From an uncultured Clostridia bacterium (lineage in GTDB: Bacteria; Bacillota; Clostridia; UBA1381): a stretch of DNA of 64,000 bases. The position numbers were made by a program, and so were the translations under genes. Location of the stretch: positions 1-64,000 of the forward strand of contig CALXWJ010000097.1 in the NCBI GenBank assembly GCA_944392335.1, written 5' to 3'. Of the stretch, positions 5,623 through 51,018 are shown in pieces (positions within the stretch are counted from its first letter, which is position 1; each line of letters opens with the position of its first letter). Under the pieces are notes generated by a model that saw nothing but the letters and a program-made list of their open reading frames with translations, was not told the origin of the DNA and did not search any database.

Positions 5623-6849
5623 ATGAATGATAATACTTTAGAATGGATATGGCTGACTGCACTGAAAGGTATGAATCCCGCAAAGATAACATCATTGCTA
5701 AACAAATTTAACGGTGTGAATGAAATTTACTCTGCTGATGCCGCGGAATTTAAAAATATAGATCTTATCAAAGCAAATGATATAAAAATGCTGGAAAACA
5801 AAAGCCTTTCCGGGGCAGAGCATATTTTAAAACAGCTTGATAAAATAGGAGCGTATGCTATTGATTTTGACAGTGGGAGATATCCCGAACGCTTAAAGCG
5901 TCTGGCGGATCCTCCGTATGTATTGTATGTGCGGGGTAAGCTGCCGGATTTTAACGGTAAATGCGTTTCGATAGGTGTTGTAGGAACAAGACGATACAGT
6001 GAATACGGCGCGCAGGTCACAAAGAAAATGTGCTTTGAGCTGGCACGAAACGGGTTTACCGTTATATCGGGTATGGCAAGAGGCATAGATACCTTTGCAT
6101 CGATGTCCGCCCTGAGGGCAGGCGCGGATACCGCGGTGGTATTGGGCTGCGGTGTGGACGTGGTATATCCTCCGGAGAATGTTGAGCTGATGAACGCGAT
6201 AATTGAAAACGGCGCTGTAATTTCAGAATATCCGCCGATGACACAGCCCTACGGATACCATTTCCCGGAAAGAAACAGGATCATTGCCGCGCTGTCTGAT
6301 TGCCTGCTGGTGACCGAAGCGCCCAAAGGCAGCGGCGCATTGATCACCGCAAGACGCGCATATGAAATGAATGTTAATATTTTCGCCGTACCGGGAAGTG
6401 TGTTCTCGGCAAACAGCGTGGGTACGAACAATATGATAAAGGCGGGAGTAAAACCCGCCACCTCTCCAAAGGACATAATCGATGAATACTCATATGAAAT
6501 TTCAAACCTCGGCGAAAACAAAAACAACGAACCTGTTTTTGTAAACGAACCGAATATAAAAAAACAATATAAAATGAAGAATATGCAGCTGCCGGTTAAA
6601 GAGAAAACGGCTGATACGCCAGCCGATGACAAACATAAAAATAAAAAGGACATTCCGGGGCTGTCAGAACAAGAGCAGACGATAGTAAATATCATAAACG
6701 AAAACGGAAAGATAAGCTGTGATGAAATAATACGAAAAAGTGACCTTGAGGCATTAGAGGTAAATCAAATATTGCCTTTAATGGAGATTATGGGAATAAT
6801 AAAAAAATTACCGGGTAATTATTATATAATGATTGATGAAGATTTATAA
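5623..6849 (+). CDS. dprA: DNA-processing protein DprA
   Basis: The 408-residue protein has an N-terminal SAM-like helical part, a central Rossmann-fold DprA domain (GVVGTRRYSEYG, SGMARGIDTFA, PERNRIIAALSD) and a C-terminal winged helix (about 345-405, EQEQTIVNIINENGKISCDEI). DprA binds single-stranded DNA and loads RecA during uptake of transforming DNA. The ATG follows AAGG by about 10 bases. The linker (about 290-345) is Lys-rich and low in complexity. The stop codon touches the first bases of repeat copy A. It is followed by topA, the usual Firmicute order dprA-topA-trmFO. Confidence 0.95.
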   Translation: MNDNTLEWIWLTALKGMNPAKITSLLNKFNGVNEIYSADAAEFKNIDLIKANDIKMLENKSLSGAEHILKQLDKIGAYAIDFDSGRYPERLKRLADPPYVLYVRGKLPDFNGKCVSIGVVGTRRYSEYGAQVTKKMCFELARNGFTVISGMARGIDTFASMSALRAGADTAVVLGCGVDVVYPPENVELMNAIIENGAVISEYPPMTQPYGYHFPERNRIIAALSDCLLVTEAPKGSGALITARRAYEMNVNIFAVPGSVFSANSVGTNNMIKAGVKPATSPKDIIDEYSYEISNLGENKNNEPVFVNEPNIKKQYKMKNMQLPVKEKTADTPADDKHKNKKDIPGLSEQEQTIVNIINENGKISCDEIIRKSDLEALEVNQILPLMEIMGIIKKLPGNYYIMIDEDL

Positions 6850-6992
6850 CCCAAGTGCAGATGTCCTCCGCCGTTATCGGCGTCGGGCTTCATATTTTGT
6901 AATCAGTGAGAGTATGATTTCCCGCTGATTACAGTGCAAGCCATGTCTGCATTCTTGTCCTTATTGAATGACAGGACAAACCCTTATTGAAA
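6846..6992 (+). repeat. Dispersed structured repeat, copy A (about 147 nt)
   Basis: This copy fills most of the dprA-topA gap and begins on the dprA stop codon. It has the same three-part layout as the copies at 21881 and 36120. Hairpin 1 is GC-rich around a TTATCGG loop. Hairpin 2 has a perfect 9-bp stem TGTAATCAG (6898-6906) with CTGATTACA (6925-6933). Hairpin 3 is TTGTCC with GGACAA, enclosing TTGAAT. It ends in CCCTTATTGAA. Pairing and order were found by direct comparison of the three copies. The function is unknown; see findings. Confidence 0.85.
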
Positions 6993-13475: not shown

Positions 13476-13488
13476 TATTTAAATTTAA

Positions 13489-13530
13489 TAAGGGCTTGTA
13501 CCGTTATTCAACGAGGACAAGCCCTTTTTG
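13489..13530. terminator. Solo repeat module (hairpin 3, inverted) acting as terminator
   Basis: AAGGGCTTGT and ACAAGCCCTT form a 10-bp stem followed by TTTTT on the plus strand, ending transcription of the esterase gene. Read on the minus strand the sequence CTTGTCCTCGTTGAATA and the following CAAGCCCTTATT match the third hairpin of repeat copy C almost base for base. It is therefore a lone, inverted module of that repeat lying between convergent genes. Confidence 0.75.
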
Positions 13531-19563: not shown

Positions 19564-19598
19564 AAGTCTTATAATTGATGGATCGGAGGATGGGTATC

Positions 19599-21836
19599 AT
19601 GACAGAAAAGGAAACAAATTATACAGTCTTTTTAAACGGCAGGAAACAGAGAATTGAAACGGCATTGATAAAACCTGTCCCGTATAATTGTGAAAAAGTT
19701 CAGGAATTTGTTATATGTAAATATACAAAGGATTCACTTCTTGAAATAAAGAGCAAAAAAAATATCGGCAAGGTAACAATACGTCCGCTGTCGGCGAATA
19801 TAAAGTATTCGTTTGATGAGCATACAATAAAAATACAATTGCCGAGGCCTCTTAATTTTTCCGTGGAGATAAACGGTACTGCACAGGATAATATTTTGAT
19901 ATTTGCCTCAGAGGAGAAAGAATATGACTTTGACGGATTAAATGTTATTCATTTGACTGAAAACTGCAAAAAAGACAGGATTTTGATCGACAGAGATAAT
20001 ACCGCATTATTTATTGATGATGATGTGTGCGTAAACTCAAAAATAGAGGTCAATGCCTGCAGGAATATAAAAATATGCGGAAATGGAATTATTACTCAGT
20101 CAGGTGTTACAAACAATAAATATCGTATATGCGTGGATGTATTAGGGTGTGAAAACGTATCGATTGAGGATATAACTATAACGGAAAGTTTGTTTTGGTG
20201 TCTTAGAGTATTCGGATGTGACAACGTACATATCAAAAATGTAAAAATCATAGGATACAGAGGAAATAACGACGGTATTGATGTATGCGGATCAAGAAAT
20301 GTTGAAGTTGACGGCGCATTCATAAGGACATGGGATGACAGTTTTGTCGTAAAGGCTGTTGATGAGAGAGACAAAAAAAGTATTCATTATGTTGTCGAAG
20401 GTTCAAAAACAGATATGACAAAAGCATTCGAGCGTGTCGGTGATGTGTATAACATTCTTTTTAAAAACAGCACGTTATGGAATGATTTTGCAAGACCCAT
20501 AGAAATCGGAGTTTCATTAAGAGCGGATAGGGTGTATAATATACGCTATGAAAATATTGATATTATACACAGTACCACAGGTTATCCGCTTATGGGAGCG
20601 CATCACGGAGACCGTGCCGAGGTGTATGACGTTACATTTGAGGATATTCGTGTTGAGGATGCACCCGGAGCGCAGTTGTTTGATTTCAGAATAACTGATT
20701 CAGAGTGGAGTACCGATGATAAAAAGGGAAGTATGCATGATTTCTTTTTTAAGAATATAAAGCTGATAGGCAGACCGGGTATCGATATTCTGCCGGAGGC
20801 GTCCCGTCTTGAGGGATATTCCGAAGAACACGGAATAAGAAACTTTTGTTTTGAGGATATAGAGCTTCTGGGGGAAACGGCTCAAAACGCACAGCAGCTA
20901 AATTTAAATATAATGGATCACGTGCATGATATCACTTTTAAGGGCGGCCGGAACAAAAAATGTATATCGGTCGTAACAACGGCGATCAGACAAACGGATG
21001 AGCCTGTATTAAAAGAGGATGGGAATTTTGAGATCGGCATATTGATGGAGCTTGAAAACAAATCAAGCAAAAAAACCGAGGGAGAGGTATATATAAAGGC
21101 GTCGCCCAGGAATTCAGGTGAAATAAAAAGTCGGACAGTGTTTGAGCTTATGCCGGGAGAAAGAAAAGAATATACCTTTAAAGGTGTATTCCCGCCGGGA
21201 AAACACTGCCTTTGTGCGGAGTCTGAGAATATCGGAGTGAGATCCTCAAAACTTCTCATCGATCTGCCATGGTATATGACCGGGAGTATAGACTCTGCAT
21301 ATCCGCTTTATTTTACAAATTATTATAATGACACAAGACCTCCTGTTTACATGTCGGTTAAAGATGGTATTCTTACATTGAAATCAGATATCATAAAAAA
21401 CGGAAAGCTTATACTTTACACCGCCAATCCGGTACCTGTAAGAATGAACGAGGTACTTTTCACCGTTGAGGAAACGGATTTCGGGGAAGCCCCGGCTCTG
21501 GTCATGGAAAAGGACGGACCCGTGAGTGCTCCTCAGCTTAGATGCCCTGCGGAAATAACCTATGTATTTCATAATGAGCCTAAGGTAGAAAAAATAAATA
21601 AAATCGATATACCGGCAAACGCGGACGGTATTTACTCCGCCGCTTTGTCAGACATTGGTATAGATGGTGCAGGAAATGAATTTCTCGCGGAAATCCGGGT
21701 AAAGGATAAGGAAAGTGAAAAATACAGGTATGCGTATACGCTGGGACATTCTGTCTGGCCGGAGCAGTTAAGTCACATGTTTATAAAGGTGATAAAGAAT
21801 AAAGATATATCTGGTGAAAAAGCAAGAAGAAAATAA
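19599..21836 (+). CDS. GH28-like right-handed beta-helix glycoside hydrolase
   Basis: The 745-residue protein has a central parallel beta-helix (about 110-440) with short repeats of the type CENVSIEDITITES. The GH28 catalytic region is visible as NNDGIDVCGS and RTWDDSFVVKA, supplying the Asp and Asp-Asp residues. An N-terminal beta domain (1-110) and a C-terminal region of about 250 residues flank it. No signal peptide is present, so it probably acts on imported oligosaccharides in the cytoplasm. GGAGG lies 10 bases before the ATG at 19599. It closes the sugar-acid operon, suggesting release of the acid or neutral sugar that the operon catabolises. Polygalacturonase or rhamnogalacturonase activity is a family-level guess. 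Confidence 0.8.
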   Translation: MTEKETNYTVFLNGRKQRIETALIKPVPYNCEKVQEFVICKYTKDSLLEIKSKKNIGKVTIRPLSANIKYSFDEHTIKIQLPRPLNFSVEINGTAQDNILIFASEEKEYDFDGLNVIHLTENCKKDRILIDRDNTALFIDDDVCVNSKIEVNACRNIKICGNGIITQSGVTNNKYRICVDVLGCENVSIEDITITESLFWCLRVFGCDNVHIKNVKIIGYRGNNDGIDVCGSRNVEVDGAFIRTWDDSFVVKAVDERDKKSIHYVVEGSKTDMTKAFERVGDVYNILFKNSTLWNDFARPIEIGVSLRADRVYNIRYENIDIIHSTTGYPLMGAHHGDRAEVYDVTFEDIRVEDAPGAQLFDFRITDSEWSTDDKKGSMHDFFFKNIKLIGRPGIDILPEASRLEGYSEEHGIRNFCFEDIELLGETAQNAQQLNLNIMDHVHDITFKGGRNKKCISVVTTAIRQTDEPVLKEDGNFEIGILMELENKSSKKTEGEVYIKASPRNSGEIKSRTVFELMPGERKEYTFKGVFPPGKHCLCAESENIGVRSSKLLIDLPWYMTGSIDSAYPLYFTNYYNDTRPPVYMSVKDGILTLKSDIIKNGKLILYTANPVPVRMNEVLFTVEETDFGEAPALVMEKDGPVSAPQLRCPAEITYVFHNEPKVEKINKIDIPANADGIYSAALSDIGIDGAGNEFLAEIRVKDKESEKYRYAYTLGHSVWPEQLSHMFIKVIKNKDISGEKARRK

Positions 21837-21880
21837 TTTTTCTTAAAATTCAGCGGTTAAATATGTATTTTCGTTGAGGT

Positions 21881-22024
21881 ATAACCTAAGCAAAGATGCC
21901 CCCGCCGTAATCGGCGGCGGGTTTCATATTTGTAATCGGTTAGAGTATATTCTCCCGCTGATTACAGCACAGTTATGCTGAGCTTTTGTCATAGTTTGAA
22001 TGACGGGACAAGCCTTTATTGAAT
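21881..22024 (+). repeat. Dispersed structured repeat, copy B (about 144 nt)
   Basis: This copy lies between the convergent ends of the GH28-like and amidohydrolase genes. Hairpin 1 is a perfect 7-bp stem CCCGCCG (21901-21907) with CGGCGGG (21915-21921) around loop TAATCGG. Hairpin 2 pairs TGTAATCGG (21931-21939) with CTGATTACA (21958-21966), one position being G.U on the plus strand. Hairpin 3 pairs TTGTC with GACAA around TTTGAAT. It ends with CCTTTATTGAAT, like the other copies. Confidence 0.85.
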
Positions 22025-22029
22025 TTATT

Positions 22030-22848
22030 TCAGTGAGTATCGGAGTTTTTAAAAAGATCAGAATACTGCCCGTAAAAAGACACAAAATTATTGTACAAAA
22101 CATTTTCTGTGACATTATCGGGTAATTTCAAATCCATTATATTTTTGAGTTCACTCTCATGATCCCACATAGGGAAATCGGTTGCAAAGAAAATGTGACT
22201 GTTATCAAAAGTATCAAATCCTTTTTTTGCTTGTTCAAGCCCCTGAAATCCCATTGTGCTGCTTGTATCAAAGTACATATTGGGAAGGTTTAATACATCT
22301 CTTGCAATGTCCCACTGGCTCCAGCCTCCGAAATGAGCTCCGATGATATTTAATTTGGGAAATTTTTTTGCGATATCTGCAATTTTTTCCGGGTGAGAAT
22401 AACCGTAGCGGTAATCGCCTGCATGTGTCAAAACAAACATATTTAATTGTATTAAGGTGTCGTAAACGGGGAACAGTTCTTTATCATTAAAATCAAATTT
22501 CTGAAAATCAGGGTGTAATTTGATCCCGTGAATACCTGATTTTTTTAATCTTTCAAGCTCGTCTCCATAGTGTTCATAGCCTTTAAACATGGTTCCGAGA
22601 CCTATAAATTCTTTATGTAAATTTACCTGTTCCATAATAAAACTATTTATGCTCTCAACCTGCTGCGGTTTTGTGGCGGTGGAAAACACCAAATATTTTA
22701 AAACCCCTATTTTTTTGCCCGAATCTATTAATACATCGGCAGAACCTTTATTACATATAGGTGTACTGTAAAAATCAGATATCGATTGAACGGCTTTGTC
22801 GGCAATTTTGTCGGGAAATATGTGAGCGTGCGTATCTATAATTTTCAT
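22030..22848 (-). CDS. Amidohydrolase-family (PF04909-like) metal-dependent hydrolase
   Basis: The 272-residue protein starts MKIIDTHAHIFPDKI with the HxH metal motif, has GIKLHPDFQKF, VLTHAGDY, NIIGAHFGGWSQWD and ATDFPMWDHE for the remaining metal and catalytic residues of the TIM-barrel amidohydrolase fold. Relatives hydrolyse or decarboxylate small aromatic or lactone substrates; the actual substrate is unknown. AAAGG precedes the ATG by 8 bases. It follows the acyl-CoA synthetase fusion gene on the same strand and may share its mRNA. Confidence 0.85.
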   Translation of the reverse strand: MKIIDTHAHIFPDKIADKAVQSISDFYSTPICNKGSADVLIDSGKKIGVLKYLVFSTATKPQQVESINSFIMEQVNLHKEFIGLGTMFKGYEHYGDELERLKKSGIHGIKLHPDFQKFDFNDKELFPVYDTLIQLNMFVLTHAGDYRYGYSHPEKIADIAKKFPKLNIIGAHFGGWSQWDIARDVLNLPNMYFDTSSTMGFQGLEQAKKGFDTFDNSHIFFATDFPMWDHESELKNIMDLKLPDNVTENVLYNNFVSFYGQYSDLFKNSDTH

Positions 22849-22969: not shown

Positions 22970-25276
22970 TTATTTATTGTTATCTTTTTCTCTTATTTCA
23001 ACACGTCTTATTTTACCGCTTATTGTCTTTGGTAATTCTTCAACAAATTCCACAATTCTCGGATATTTATAAGGAGCGGTGTGTTCTTTTACATAATTTT
23101 GGATTTCCTTTTTCAATGCATCGGAATGTTCCGTTCCTTTTGTAAGAACGATGGTAGCTTTAACTACCTGTCCGCGGATAGGGTCGGGAGCAGGAGTGAT
23201 AGCACATTCCAATACATAGGGCAATTCCATAATAACACTTTCAATTTCAAAAGGTCCGATTCTGTAACCAGAAGATTTGATGACATCATCAATTCTTCCT
23301 ACATACCAAAAATATCCGTCCTCATCTCTCCAAGCCGTGTCGCCCGTATGATATATGTTATTATCATAAACTTCTTTTGTTTTTTCTTCATCGCGATAGT
23401 AGCCAGTAAACAATCCGCATGGAACACCTTTATCAGTTCGGATAACTATTTCCCCTGTTTCTCCGACTCCGGCACTGGTGTTGTCGCCAAGGATTATATC
23501 AACGTCATATAATGGACTGGGCTTACCCATTGAACCGGGCTTAGGTACAGTACCCCTTAAGTTTGCAACGGTAAGTGTTGTCTCGGTTTGCCCGAATCCT
23601 TCCATAAGCTTTAAGCCTGTAGCTTTTTTCCATTGATCATATACCTCGGGATTTAAGGCTTCTCCCGCAACAGTGGCATATTCAATTGATGACAGATCAT
23701 ATTTTGATAAATCTTCTTTAATAAAGAATCTGTACATTGTCGGAGGCGCACAGAAGGTTGTTATATTGTATTTCTTAAACATTGGAAGAATATCATGTGC
23801 ACTAAATTTATCAAAGTCATATGTGAATATAGCAGCCTCACAAAGCCATTGACCGTATAATTTACCCCAGAGCGCTTTACCCCAGCCCGTATCGGATATG
23901 GTGAAGTGAAGACCGTCGGGATTGACATTATGCCAGTATTTTGCCGTAATAAAGTGTCCGAGAGGATATTTATAGTTGTGAGATGCGATTTTTGGATATC
24001 CAGTTGTGCCGGATGTGAAAAACATAAGCATCAGATCGTTGCCGCATGCACTGTCGGAAGTCCTTTCAAACACATCGGAGCAATTGAGCATTTCATCGTT
24101 AAAGTCATGCCAGCCGTCACGTTTTCCGCCTACAATGATTTTTGTTAAAGGTTCACCGTAATTTTTTTCACTCAAATCGACCTGATGTGCAACATCGCCA
24201 TCCGATGTACAAACAATTGCAGAAACACCTGCTGCTTTAAATCTGTAATCAAAGTCGTGTTCAACCAAGAGGTTTGTTGCCGGAATTACAATTGCACCCA
24301 GCTTATGAAGAGCCAATATAGAGAACCAGAATTGATAGTGGCGTTTCAAGACAAGCATAACTCTGTCTCCTTTTTTGATACCAAGAGACTTAAAGTAATT
24401 TGCTGTCATTGATGAATATTTGCTCATGTCGCCGAAGGTAAATCTTCTTTCTTCATGAGTGTTGGAAACATGAAGCATTGCAAGTTTATCCGGACATTTT
24501 TTCGCGAGTTCGTCTACTACGTCAAACGCGAAATTAAAACTGTCTTCATTTACAAATTTAATATCAGTCAATCTGCCGTCTGTATCCTTTGCCGTTTTAA
24601 TAAATTTTTTGTATACGGCGGTCATCGGCTGATCGCTGCGTTTTGCTTCTCTTGTATTTTCGTCCTGTTCGGAAACGGGCTCCGGCAAGGATCCGTCTTC
24701 GTTTAGAACAATCGCATATATCTCAACGTCTTCGCCGTCCAAAGCAACAAGTCCGTGAGGCGTACGGCTGTTATAATAGATGGAATCTCCAGGATTAAGT
24801 ATTTCCGTATTATTGCCCACAACAGCCTTGAGCTTGCCGCTTATAACAATATCAAATTCCTGACCTGCATGGCTTGTGCATTTTGCTGGCAGCTGTTCAT
24901 CTTCTTTTGAATAAGGGATTTTTACTCTGAAAGGCTCAGCAAGCTTATTCTTAAATAACGGAGCAAGATTTTTGTAAGTAAAACCTGCGCCTCTTGTAAT
25001 AGGGAGGCCGCCGCCGCTTCTTGTTACTTCGTAGCTTGACAGTGTAGGACTGGAACCTTGAAGAAGGTCTGTCGGGTCTACATTAAAGCATTTGGCACAT
25101 TTATAAATAAACGTAAAACTGAAATCCTTTGTGCCTGATTCGTATTCACGATAGTCTGCTACAGATACTTCAACGTTTTTCGCCATTGACTCTTCCGAAA
25201 TACCTAATATTTCACGCATATTTTTAATTCTTTGTGCAACTTCCCAAAGCTGTTGTTTCAGTGTTTCACCTTGCAT
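22970..25276 (-). CDS. XRE-cupin-AMP-forming acyl-CoA synthetase fusion
   Basis: The 768-residue protein joins three parts: an XRE-type helix-turn-helix (about 8-66), a cupin (about 105-185, with HAGQEFDIVISG and YYNSRTPHGL) and a full acyl-CoA synthetase (about 235-765). The enzyme motifs are FFTSGTTGYPK, GFGQTETT, YHTGDTAWRDEDGYFWYVGR and the C-terminal Lys in PKTISGKIRR, so it should be catalytically active. It should activate a carboxylic acid to its CoA ester through an adenylate. The HTH-cupin pair normally forms a regulator, so the fusion may sense its own acid. AGGAGG-like GGAGGTAATT lies before the ATG. A T-box leader precedes it, which is unusual for this family. Confidence 0.85.
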   Translation of the reverse strand: MQGETLKQQLWEVAQRIKNMREILGISEESMAKNVEVSVADYREYESGTKDFSFTFIYKCAKCFNVDPTDLLQGSSPTLSSYEVTRSGGGLPITRGAGFTYKNLAPLFKNKLAEPFRVKIPYSKEDEQLPAKCTSHAGQEFDIVISGKLKAVVGNNTEILNPGDSIYYNSRTPHGLVALDGEDVEIYAIVLNEDGSLPEPVSEQDENTREAKRSDQPMTAVYKKFIKTAKDTDGRLTDIKFVNEDSFNFAFDVVDELAKKCPDKLAMLHVSNTHEERRFTFGDMSKYSSMTANYFKSLGIKKGDRVMLVLKRHYQFWFSILALHKLGAIVIPATNLLVEHDFDYRFKAAGVSAIVCTSDGDVAHQVDLSEKNYGEPLTKIIVGGKRDGWHDFNDEMLNCSDVFERTSDSACGNDLMLMFFTSGTTGYPKIASHNYKYPLGHFITAKYWHNVNPDGLHFTISDTGWGKALWGKLYGQWLCEAAIFTYDFDKFSAHDILPMFKKYNITTFCAPPTMYRFFIKEDLSKYDLSSIEYATVAGEALNPEVYDQWKKATGLKLMEGFGQTETTLTVANLRGTVPKPGSMGKPSPLYDVDIILGDNTSAGVGETGEIVIRTDKGVPCGLFTGYYRDEEKTKEVYDNNIYHTGDTAWRDEDGYFWYVGRIDDVIKSSGYRIGPFEIESVIMELPYVLECAITPAPDPIRGQVVKATIVLTKGTEHSDALKKEIQNYVKEHTAPYKYPRIVEFVEELPKTISGKIRRVEIREKDNNK

Positions 25277-25334: not shown

Positions 25335-25614
25335 TAAAAAAACCGTCTCAAGAAAAACATCTTGAGACGGAATATAATATCCCGCGGTACCACTCAAATT
25401 GCGTATTACTACGCCACTCATAGACTCTAACAAGTCCCTTGCCTTAACGTTGCAAACTCACGGAAGGAATCTACTGACCATATGGCTTTCGGACCTTCAG
25501 CTCGGAAGTGATAGGTTTTTGAATAACCGTACCATTGGCTCGCAGCAACCGCCAACTCTCTCAAGGCGTAATTATTCAACCGTCTTCGTCACAGCTTTTA
25601 TTTATTCAATTATT
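25335..25614 (-). ncRNA. T-box riboswitch leader
   Basis: On the minus strand the leader starts near 25614 and ends in an intrinsic terminator (CCGTCTCAAG with CTTGAGACGG, 25371-25343, then seven T). Before it stands the T-box GAGTGGTACCGCGG (about 25397-25384), whose TGGT would pair with the tRNA end ACCA. Further upstream are the stem I landmarks GACGAAGACGG, TTGAGAGAGTTGG and GGTTGCTGCGAGCC and the stem II/III segment CAGTAGATTCCTTCCGTGAG. The specifier is not certain: TTC (Phe) fits the loop best, AAA (Lys) is the alternative. It controls the acyl-CoA synthetase fusion gene at 25276. Confidence 0.9.
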
Positions 25615-36086: not shown

Positions 36087-36119
36087 ATAATACCTCCAAA
36101 AATTATTGATTCTTAAATG

Positions 36120-36264
36120 ATAACTGCAGCCAAGATGTCTCCCGTTTTTATCGGCGGTGGGTTCCATATCTGTAATCAGTGTGAGAATGAATCTCCCACT
36201 GATTACAGCGCTGTATAGCTGTGCTCTTGTCCTCGTTGAATAGGTGGACAAGCCCTTATTGAAT
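36120..36264 (+). repeat. Dispersed structured repeat, copy C (about 145 nt)
   Basis: This copy lies between the minus-strand membrane protein and DRTGG genes. Hairpin 1 pairs CCCGTTT (36141-36147) with CGGTGGG (36155-36161) using three G.U pairs and one mismatch. Hairpin 2 is an 11-bp perfect stem TGTAATCAGTG (36171-36181) with CACTGATTACA (36197-36207), with an inner GAGA/TCTC. Hairpin 3 pairs CTTGTCC (36226-36232) with GGACAAG (36246-36252) around GTTGAATA. It ends CCCTTATTGAATA. The orientation is opposite to both neighbouring genes. Confidence 0.85.
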
Positions 36265-50782: not shown

Positions 50783-51010
50783 TTAAAAAAACAATAGCTG
50801 CAGGGAGCTATTGCTGAAACGGCATAAAAATGCTTTTTGCAGTAGCTCTCCATCATTTGTGTAATGATGACAGCCGCAATGCTATTAACATTACGTCCAG
50901 CAACAGATCATACGGATTGACCGTCACTTCGGCATTGTTTCCTTTCACAACAAACAAATTCTCCGCAAAACATCTCGTTGTTACTTATAAAAAATGCGCC
51001 TCTACCTCTA
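50783..51010 (-). ncRNA. Lysine riboswitch (L-box) with terminator
   Basis: On the minus strand the leader opens with AGAGGTAGAGGCGC and contains AAGTAAC, ATGCCGAAGTGACGG, GTTGCTGGACG, GCGGCTGTCATCATT and ATGATGGAGAGCTACTGC in the order of the lysine aptamer; the first and last segments form P1. It is followed by the terminator stem CAATAGCTCCC..., pairing with CTATTG before a seven-T run (about 50812-50783). It controls the asd-dapA-dapB genes; lysine should stop transcription. Confidence 0.93.
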
Positions 51011-51018
51011 TGTTTAAT

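Follow-up and report, generated by a model that had tools for sequence, protein, structure and literature searches.

The window analysed here, a 64,000-nucleotide stretch of DNA from an uncultured Clostridia bacterium, contains three full-length copies of a repeat, every one on the plus strand, and one right-end fragment on the minus strand (Table 1). Two genes converge on copy B, one of them glycosyl-hydrolase-28-like (19575-21836, +) and the other coding for an amidohydrolase (22030-22848, -). The right-end fragment sits between two convergent genes and may now act as a terminator. Elsewhere in the window are a lysine riboswitch (50835-51012, -; Rfam RF00168, 105.7 bits) and a T-box leader (25360-25601, -; RF00230), the latter upstream of a 768-aa protein (22970-25276, -). 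By eye this protein resembles an acyl-CoA synthetase that carries an XRE-type DNA-binding domain at its N terminus, which would be an unusual T-box target.

A DNA search of the genome with the repeat revealed at least 46 matches. A profile search of 0.97 Mb of fetched sequence, a sample partly chosen because its stretches held copies, yielded 124 copies, of which 93 were full length. Six long contigs taken nearly whole (~735 kb) held 63 copies scoring above 40 bits; extrapolation to the 3.64-Mb genome therefore gives about 300 full or partial copies. All copies are intergenic, with none inside a predicted gene. The repeat is a real dispersed element of about 145 nt.

Table 1. Copies of the element in the window, parts of copy B, and composite elements elsewhere in the genome
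Feature	Position	Strand	Basis or remark
Copy A, full-length element	6845..6991	+	profile match
Right-end fragment, model positions 107-146	13483..13522	-	profile match; hairpin GGGCTTGT...ACAAGCCC, then TTATT
Copy B, full-length element (144 nt)	21880..22023	+	profile match and sharp ends common to 93 full copies
Copy B, TATAA, putative retained target sequence at left end	21880..21884	+	nested insertion at C12:109634, same genome
Copy B, hairpin 1 (CCCCCGCCG TAAT CGGCGG C GGG)	21899..21921	+	pair states; GATGTCCCCCGCC motif conserved in relatives
Copy B, hairpin 2, best covarying stem	21930..21967	+	two-sided changes across species in 11/16 pairs
Copy B, hairpin 3, variable	21967..21984	+	replaced by a REP-bearing version in ~12 copies elsewhere
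Copy B, last hairpin (TTGTC ... GACAA)	21985..22012	+	pair counts
Copy B, right terminus CCTTTATTGAA	22013..22023	+	CCCTTATTGAA nearly invariant in 71 aligned copies
Copy C, full-length element	36119..36263	+	in the gap named dprA-topA in the preliminary description
Composite elements, type I then right part of type II	L022 2460-2750 (G000:C12:109560-109850); C1:79392; C33:14459 and 17835		

The element begins with TATAAC and terminates with TTATTGAA; in copy B the termini read TATAAC ... TTTATTGAA. In 71 aligned copies both ends are sharp and the flanks are AT-rich, otherwise without features; neither terminal inverted repeats nor a flanking target duplication was found in this set. Across all types the length ranges from ~117 to 200 nt, too short for a transposase gene. 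Both termini have a palindrome close by, hairpin 1 lying some 15-20 nt inside the left end and the right hairpin some 8-11 nt inside the right end. In better preserved copies the 5' arm of the last hairpin doubles as a partner of a helix, P1 (AAC...GTT), that pairs the extreme ends of the element. Copy B is probably not an intact element because its left arm (21880-21898, CCTAAGCAAAG) is of another type than the rest, a type II arm joined to a type I body, and has no P1 partner. Copies with the CCTAAGCAAAG left arm may be recombinants. In about 12 copies, 168 nt long, a different repeat, REP GTAGGGGCGATTCACGAATCGCC, is nested inside hairpin 3, and this REP-bearing subfamily has evidently multiplied as one unit.

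The element is widespread in gut Clostridia. A structure model detected it in 24 of the 70 genomes of the family and in 10 of its 17 genera, with very uneven copy numbers. Searched as the pattern TATAAC-N(4-14)-GATGTCCCCCGCC, it occurred, among the matches listed, in named Oscillospiraceae, Ruminococcus, Ruminiclostridium, Acetivibrio sp. MSJd-27, Alkaliphilus and Selenomonas. Pattern matches in Capnocytophaga and Syntrophomonas lacked the fold and probably arose by chance, about 20 chance matches being the estimate for the whole collection. The plasmid and phage records searched contained no match to the element. The left-end pattern was present in three viral contigs and the full element in at least one; these contigs are likely host or prophage DNA. 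Rfam gave no credible match for the window, for copy B at a low threshold, or for nine relatives. A description of the repeat was not found in the literature, although subscription papers may contain one.

The preliminary description had taken the three copies in the window as evidence of selection on an RNA fold, and had made this reading dependent on significant covariation in a large alignment. Covariation proved to be strong once several genomes were compared. Within this genome, compensatory changes were only a little more frequent than in shuffled alignments (14 pairs versus 9.0 +/- 2.3), and 15 of 500 shuffles reached as high a value. Across species, an alignment of 25 distinct copies that represent this genome, others of the family and Acetivibrio, built without reference to structure, gave 65 compensatory cells versus 23.2 +/- 4.3 in shuffles (0/500 as high), a difference that does not amount to a probability because shuffling leaves the relatedness of the copies in place. 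In slid controls of the 25-copy alignment, pairing dropped to 33-50%. Several pairs switch repeatedly among C-G, T-A and other standard pairs within the Acetivibrio copies alone. Helix P1 behaves in the same way: its arms differ greatly in sequence between relatives (CCTATGCAAAG/CTTTGCAGG, TTATGCAAAG/CTTTGCAA, CTATTGCGTG/CACGCACAG, AGACGTCG/CGACGTCT), and with their own partners the 73 distinct arms sum to -731 kcal/mol versus -617 +/- 14.5 kcal/mol when partners are permuted (0/5000 as low). In the type found in two of the relatives, G009 and G022, the left arm pairs just after hairpin 1 instead. RNAalifold applied to the full 90-copy alignment returned no pairs, owing to gaps. The fold is under selection and is conserved between species. 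This part of the preliminary description is upheld; its identification of the folded molecule as RNA is not supported.

The argument for RNA had been based on wobble pairs, which were said to be legal only if the plus strand is the RNA. Hairpin 1 of copy B was described as seven perfect GC pairs; all of its pairs are indeed G-C, but six are contiguous and three more follow across a bulged C, rather than an uninterrupted seven. Copy C has exactly the three T.G wobbles reported for its hairpin 1, but not "instead of breaks", since one pair is also broken (T-C). The G.T in hairpin 2 of copy B, at a pair that is A-T in copies A and C, was correctly noted. The same copies also contain other departures: an A.C in hairpin 2 of copy C; a broken hairpin-1 pair (C-T) and two A.C in the last hairpin of copy A; and, in copy B, a T-C in hairpin 2 and two A-G in the last hairpin. 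The three-copy reading was therefore selective, as these A.C pairs and breaks went unreported. At least one A.C or mismatch occurs in the stems of 44 of 46 copies from this genome.

Larger samples do not support the wobble argument either. In the 48 copies that possess hairpins 1, 2 and the last hairpin, private departures one step from the Watson-Crick consensus comprised 96 G.T and 72 A.C, about the same ratio as the 158:124 predicted by the mutation spectrum of unpaired columns. Fixed T.G pairs are found at three stem positions in most copies (76 T.G versus 6 C.A cells), but because they are shared by descent they represent about three inherited events. At one position of hairpin 2 (A4 columns 68 and 82) the copies of this genome have a fixed A.C, where those of Acetivibrio have G-C. 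The plus strand of copy B is predicted to fold with -52.4 kcal/mol (z -4.9), and its minus strand, with -42.7 kcal/mol (z -3.2), also folds beyond chance. With RNA parameters the plus strand is the more stable one in 28 of 57 distinct elements, and with DNA parameters in 20; over these elements the calculated energies reveal no preference for the plus strand. Even an excess of G.T would not indicate RNA because G.T is an equally legal wobble in single-stranded DNA. The strand of the fold cannot be read from wobbles, private changes and energies.

Information on the strand comes from the orientation of the copies. With genes called by a simple script and leading and lagging strands assigned from GC skew rather than from a mapped origin, the plus strand of the element is the G-rich (leading) strand in 89 of 102 copies. 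As many as 77 of the 102 follow a gene in the same direction. Because gene direction is confounded with the leading strand, gaps between convergent or divergent genes are decisive, and there the plus strand is leading in 33 of 40 copies (one-sided p 2e-5). Between tandem genes on the lagging strand, five copies are oriented against the direction of the genes and one with it; a gene-dependent orientation independent of replication was sought in the available data and not found. In a second genus (G009), 24 of 34 copies are on the leading strand, and 21 of 27 where the skew is strong. Orientation tracks replication, not the neighbouring genes. A sequence on the leading strand is also that of the template for the lagging strand, and this template is single-stranded at the fork. 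Since the copies align with replication and not with genes, folding of the element as single-stranded DNA during its movement is more likely than folding as a functional RNA.

How it inserts can be seen at C12:109634, the one insertion resolved to the base. A copy has inserted there into a related repeat, type II, whose hairpin loop contains the TATAA target. Empty relatives read GGGAGTTATAATCTCCC (GGGAGT-TATAA-TCTCCC) and the filled site reads GGGAGT-TATAAC...TTATTGAA-TCTCTC, with no base duplicated or lost. At this single nested copy the insertion is precise and 3' of TATAA, although the exact point may fall anywhere in the shared AA. By comparison with this site, the element proper in copy B would begin at 21885, after the TATAA target. 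Three further type I copies run directly into type II from the same position, and from their sequences these composites seem to have moved with the left end of one type and the right end of the other. Empty orthologous sites were also encountered: the gap of copy C lacks the element at the matching site in two same-genus genomes, as does the C12:112847 site in one, the junctions of both being too diverged for reading at the base level. A TATAA target would often coincide with a TAA stop codon, which would account for the many copies that start no more than a few bases from where the upstream gene ends. At one locus in the second genus (L309, G009:C8, 1739-2839) a copy starts at the stop codon of what appears by eye to be an mreB-type gene, as a TATAA target predicts. 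One locus of a same-genus assembly (L089, G002:C378) is 94.7% identical to G000:C21 over 3.1 kb, whereas other loci are ~80% identical, and judging by these identities it is likely a contaminant contig; its element (98.6%) is about as similar as the near flanks (98.5-99.5%).

An enzyme that could mobilise the element was sought among Y1 transposases. A PF01797 search of this genome identified two proteins. The first is a RAYT of 176 aa (L047, G000:C49, 1447-2292) preceded by copies of REP GTAGGGGCGATTCACGAATCGCC, and it is likely the REP's own enzyme. At the same locus this REP translates to VGAIHESP within a spurious ORF. The second protein, of ~275-281 aa (L046, G000:C66, 1048-1893, -), has an orthologue in a same-genus genome (L111, G002). 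It carries K-V-H in place of the HUH motif, with K for the first His, and by eye F for the usual Tyr. Such K-V-H Y1-like proteins, conserved between species, are perhaps a domesticated, catalytically altered transposase. Both are poor candidates for the mobiliser, one being flanked by a different REP and the other lacking the first His of HUH. Y1_Tnp gave no match in four element-carrying relatives, one of them with many copies, whose genomes are 73-85% complete. TnpB (PF07282) is absent from 10 genomes. The Y1 transposase loci of relatives have ends that differ from those of the element, and in G009 neither a long element spanning the left to right ends nor a gene-bearing version was present. 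As no fitting Y1, TnpB or long version was found, the enzyme may be absent from the assemblies or lie outside these families.

Among known systems the element most calls to mind the PATEs (palindrome-associated transposable elements), defined by palindromes near the ends together with a lack of inverted repeats, target duplication and transposase (PMC3119063). The PATEs of Haloquadratum, which derive from IS200/IS605, likewise occur in many divergent copies with nested insertions (PMC3119063). The element differs from them in its conserved, covarying internal hairpins, its end-joining helix and its bacterial host, and no IS605-type parent with common ends was found among the Y1 loci of relatives or in G009. 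Because such a parent was not found, the element is not classified as a PATE but only as working like one. With IS200/IS605 members such as IS608 and ISDra2 it has three features in common: insertion 3' of a short AT-rich target that is not duplicated, hairpins in a subterminal position, and a replication-linked orientation; but it contains neither tnpA nor tnpB. IS200/IS605 members target the lagging-strand template, and their orientation mirrors the direction of replication (PMC5371812, PMC6006769). REPs and REPINs with their RAYT (TnpA-REP) are likewise intergenic palindromes in high copy number, and a Y1-type enzyme acting in trans is believed to spread them; they are much shorter, however, and the RAYT of this genome has its separate REP, nested in a subfamily of the element. 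The HEARO and OMEGA RNAs of IscB and TnpB are also structured, dispersed and sometimes without an ORF, but here there is no Rfam match and no TnpB gene in the 10 genomes. Short interspersed repeats of Firmicutes such as BOX and RUP are also intergenic and endowed with secondary structure, but differ in sequence, in their ends and in the inverted terminal repeats that the element lacks.

These comparisons, together with the orientation and the ends, somewhat favour the view that the repeat is a non-autonomous (transposase-less) mobile element that moves as single-stranded DNA in the manner of a PATE. In the model the plus strand, exposed as lagging-strand template, would fold into a chain of hairpins, and helix P1 would draw both ends together. 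An enzyme acting in trans would then excise the element and insert it directly 3' of TATAA without duplicating the target, by the chemistry that HUH/Y1 transposases use on IS200/IS605 elements and their transposase-less PATE derivatives. By analogy with these elements, we infer the single-stranded intermediate and the Y1-like chemistry. Most copies in this genome would be decaying, non-functional insertions. Replication-linked orientation is also known from transposons of other kinds, via the beta clamp (PMC5371812). The strong constraint on the internal hairpin 2 is left unexplained because terminal hairpins would suffice for Y1 movement, and this leaves room for an RNA role.

Such a role would be central if the element were a mobile non-coding RNA, a possible but rather unlikely alternative in which a plus-strand transcript folds and is needed for movement as a guide, a protein recruiter or the template of a retro-element, the fold being selected as RNA and the copies scattered as DNA. 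That the covarying fold spans the whole length, beyond the ends, and that T.G is fixed on the plus strand at three stem positions would agree with it, and reverse splicing into the lagging-strand template, as in group II introns, would give a replication-linked orientation too. Arguing against this possibility are the absence of a strand preference in folding energies and in private wobble changes, the absence from 10 genomes of a gene for TnpB, an RNA-guided nuclease, the lack of an Rfam family, and a length far below that of a group II intron, whose ends the element does not have. The literal reading of the preliminary description, a cis-acting RNA of the neighbouring genes (terminator, attenuator or mRNA-stability element) held in place by selection, is improbable: the intergenic location, the frequent position after a gene in the same direction and the stable hairpins able to stop or protect transcripts would suit it, but replication explains the orientation where gene direction is neutral, stem pairs are broken in nearly all copies, substitutions look near neutral, and orthologous sites of same-genus genomes are without copies.

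The conserved fold could also be that of a recombination site, single-stranded DNA acted on by a tyrosine integrase as in the attC sites of integrons, which carry a GTTRRRY box. Pairing of the ends as AAC...GTT and a right arm, GTTGAAT, that agrees with this box speak for it, but the left arm TTATAAC does not fit RYYYAAC and the copies are scattered singly, not in cassette arrays, so that a site of this kind is highly improbable. There is just as little to be said for an orientation bias arising from the removal of opposite copies, with an unrelated double-stranded DNA transposase, or a serine recombinase with a 2-bp (AA) crossover, as the mover. The sequence of the nested insertion would equally allow an AA at each side (GGGAGTTAT-AA...AA-TCTC), but an enzyme that cuts double strands would not by itself explain a fold conserved over the whole element or a bias in two genera. 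Beyond the preferred reading of a PATE-like element, a wider proposal can be made tentatively and with limited confidence: the repeat may belong to a class of mobile elements widespread in Clostridia and Negativicutes, whose whole body is one conserved fold with paired ends, which is moved by an enzyme other than a canonical Y1, and whose fold possibly serves both as DNA substrate and as RNA.

Covariation is the standard proof of a working RNA. Here the covariation is real but the behaviour of the strand points to replication, and selection may act on the fold in its single-stranded DNA form. If this is true, the element would be a test case for separating RNA structure from the structure of mobile single-stranded DNA, it would caution against annotating such repeats as regulatory RNA, and it would point to a further mobilising enzyme in common gut bacteria. 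Among the named carriers, Acetivibrio sp. MSJd-27 has a record without a metagenome-assembly label and should make the element testable.
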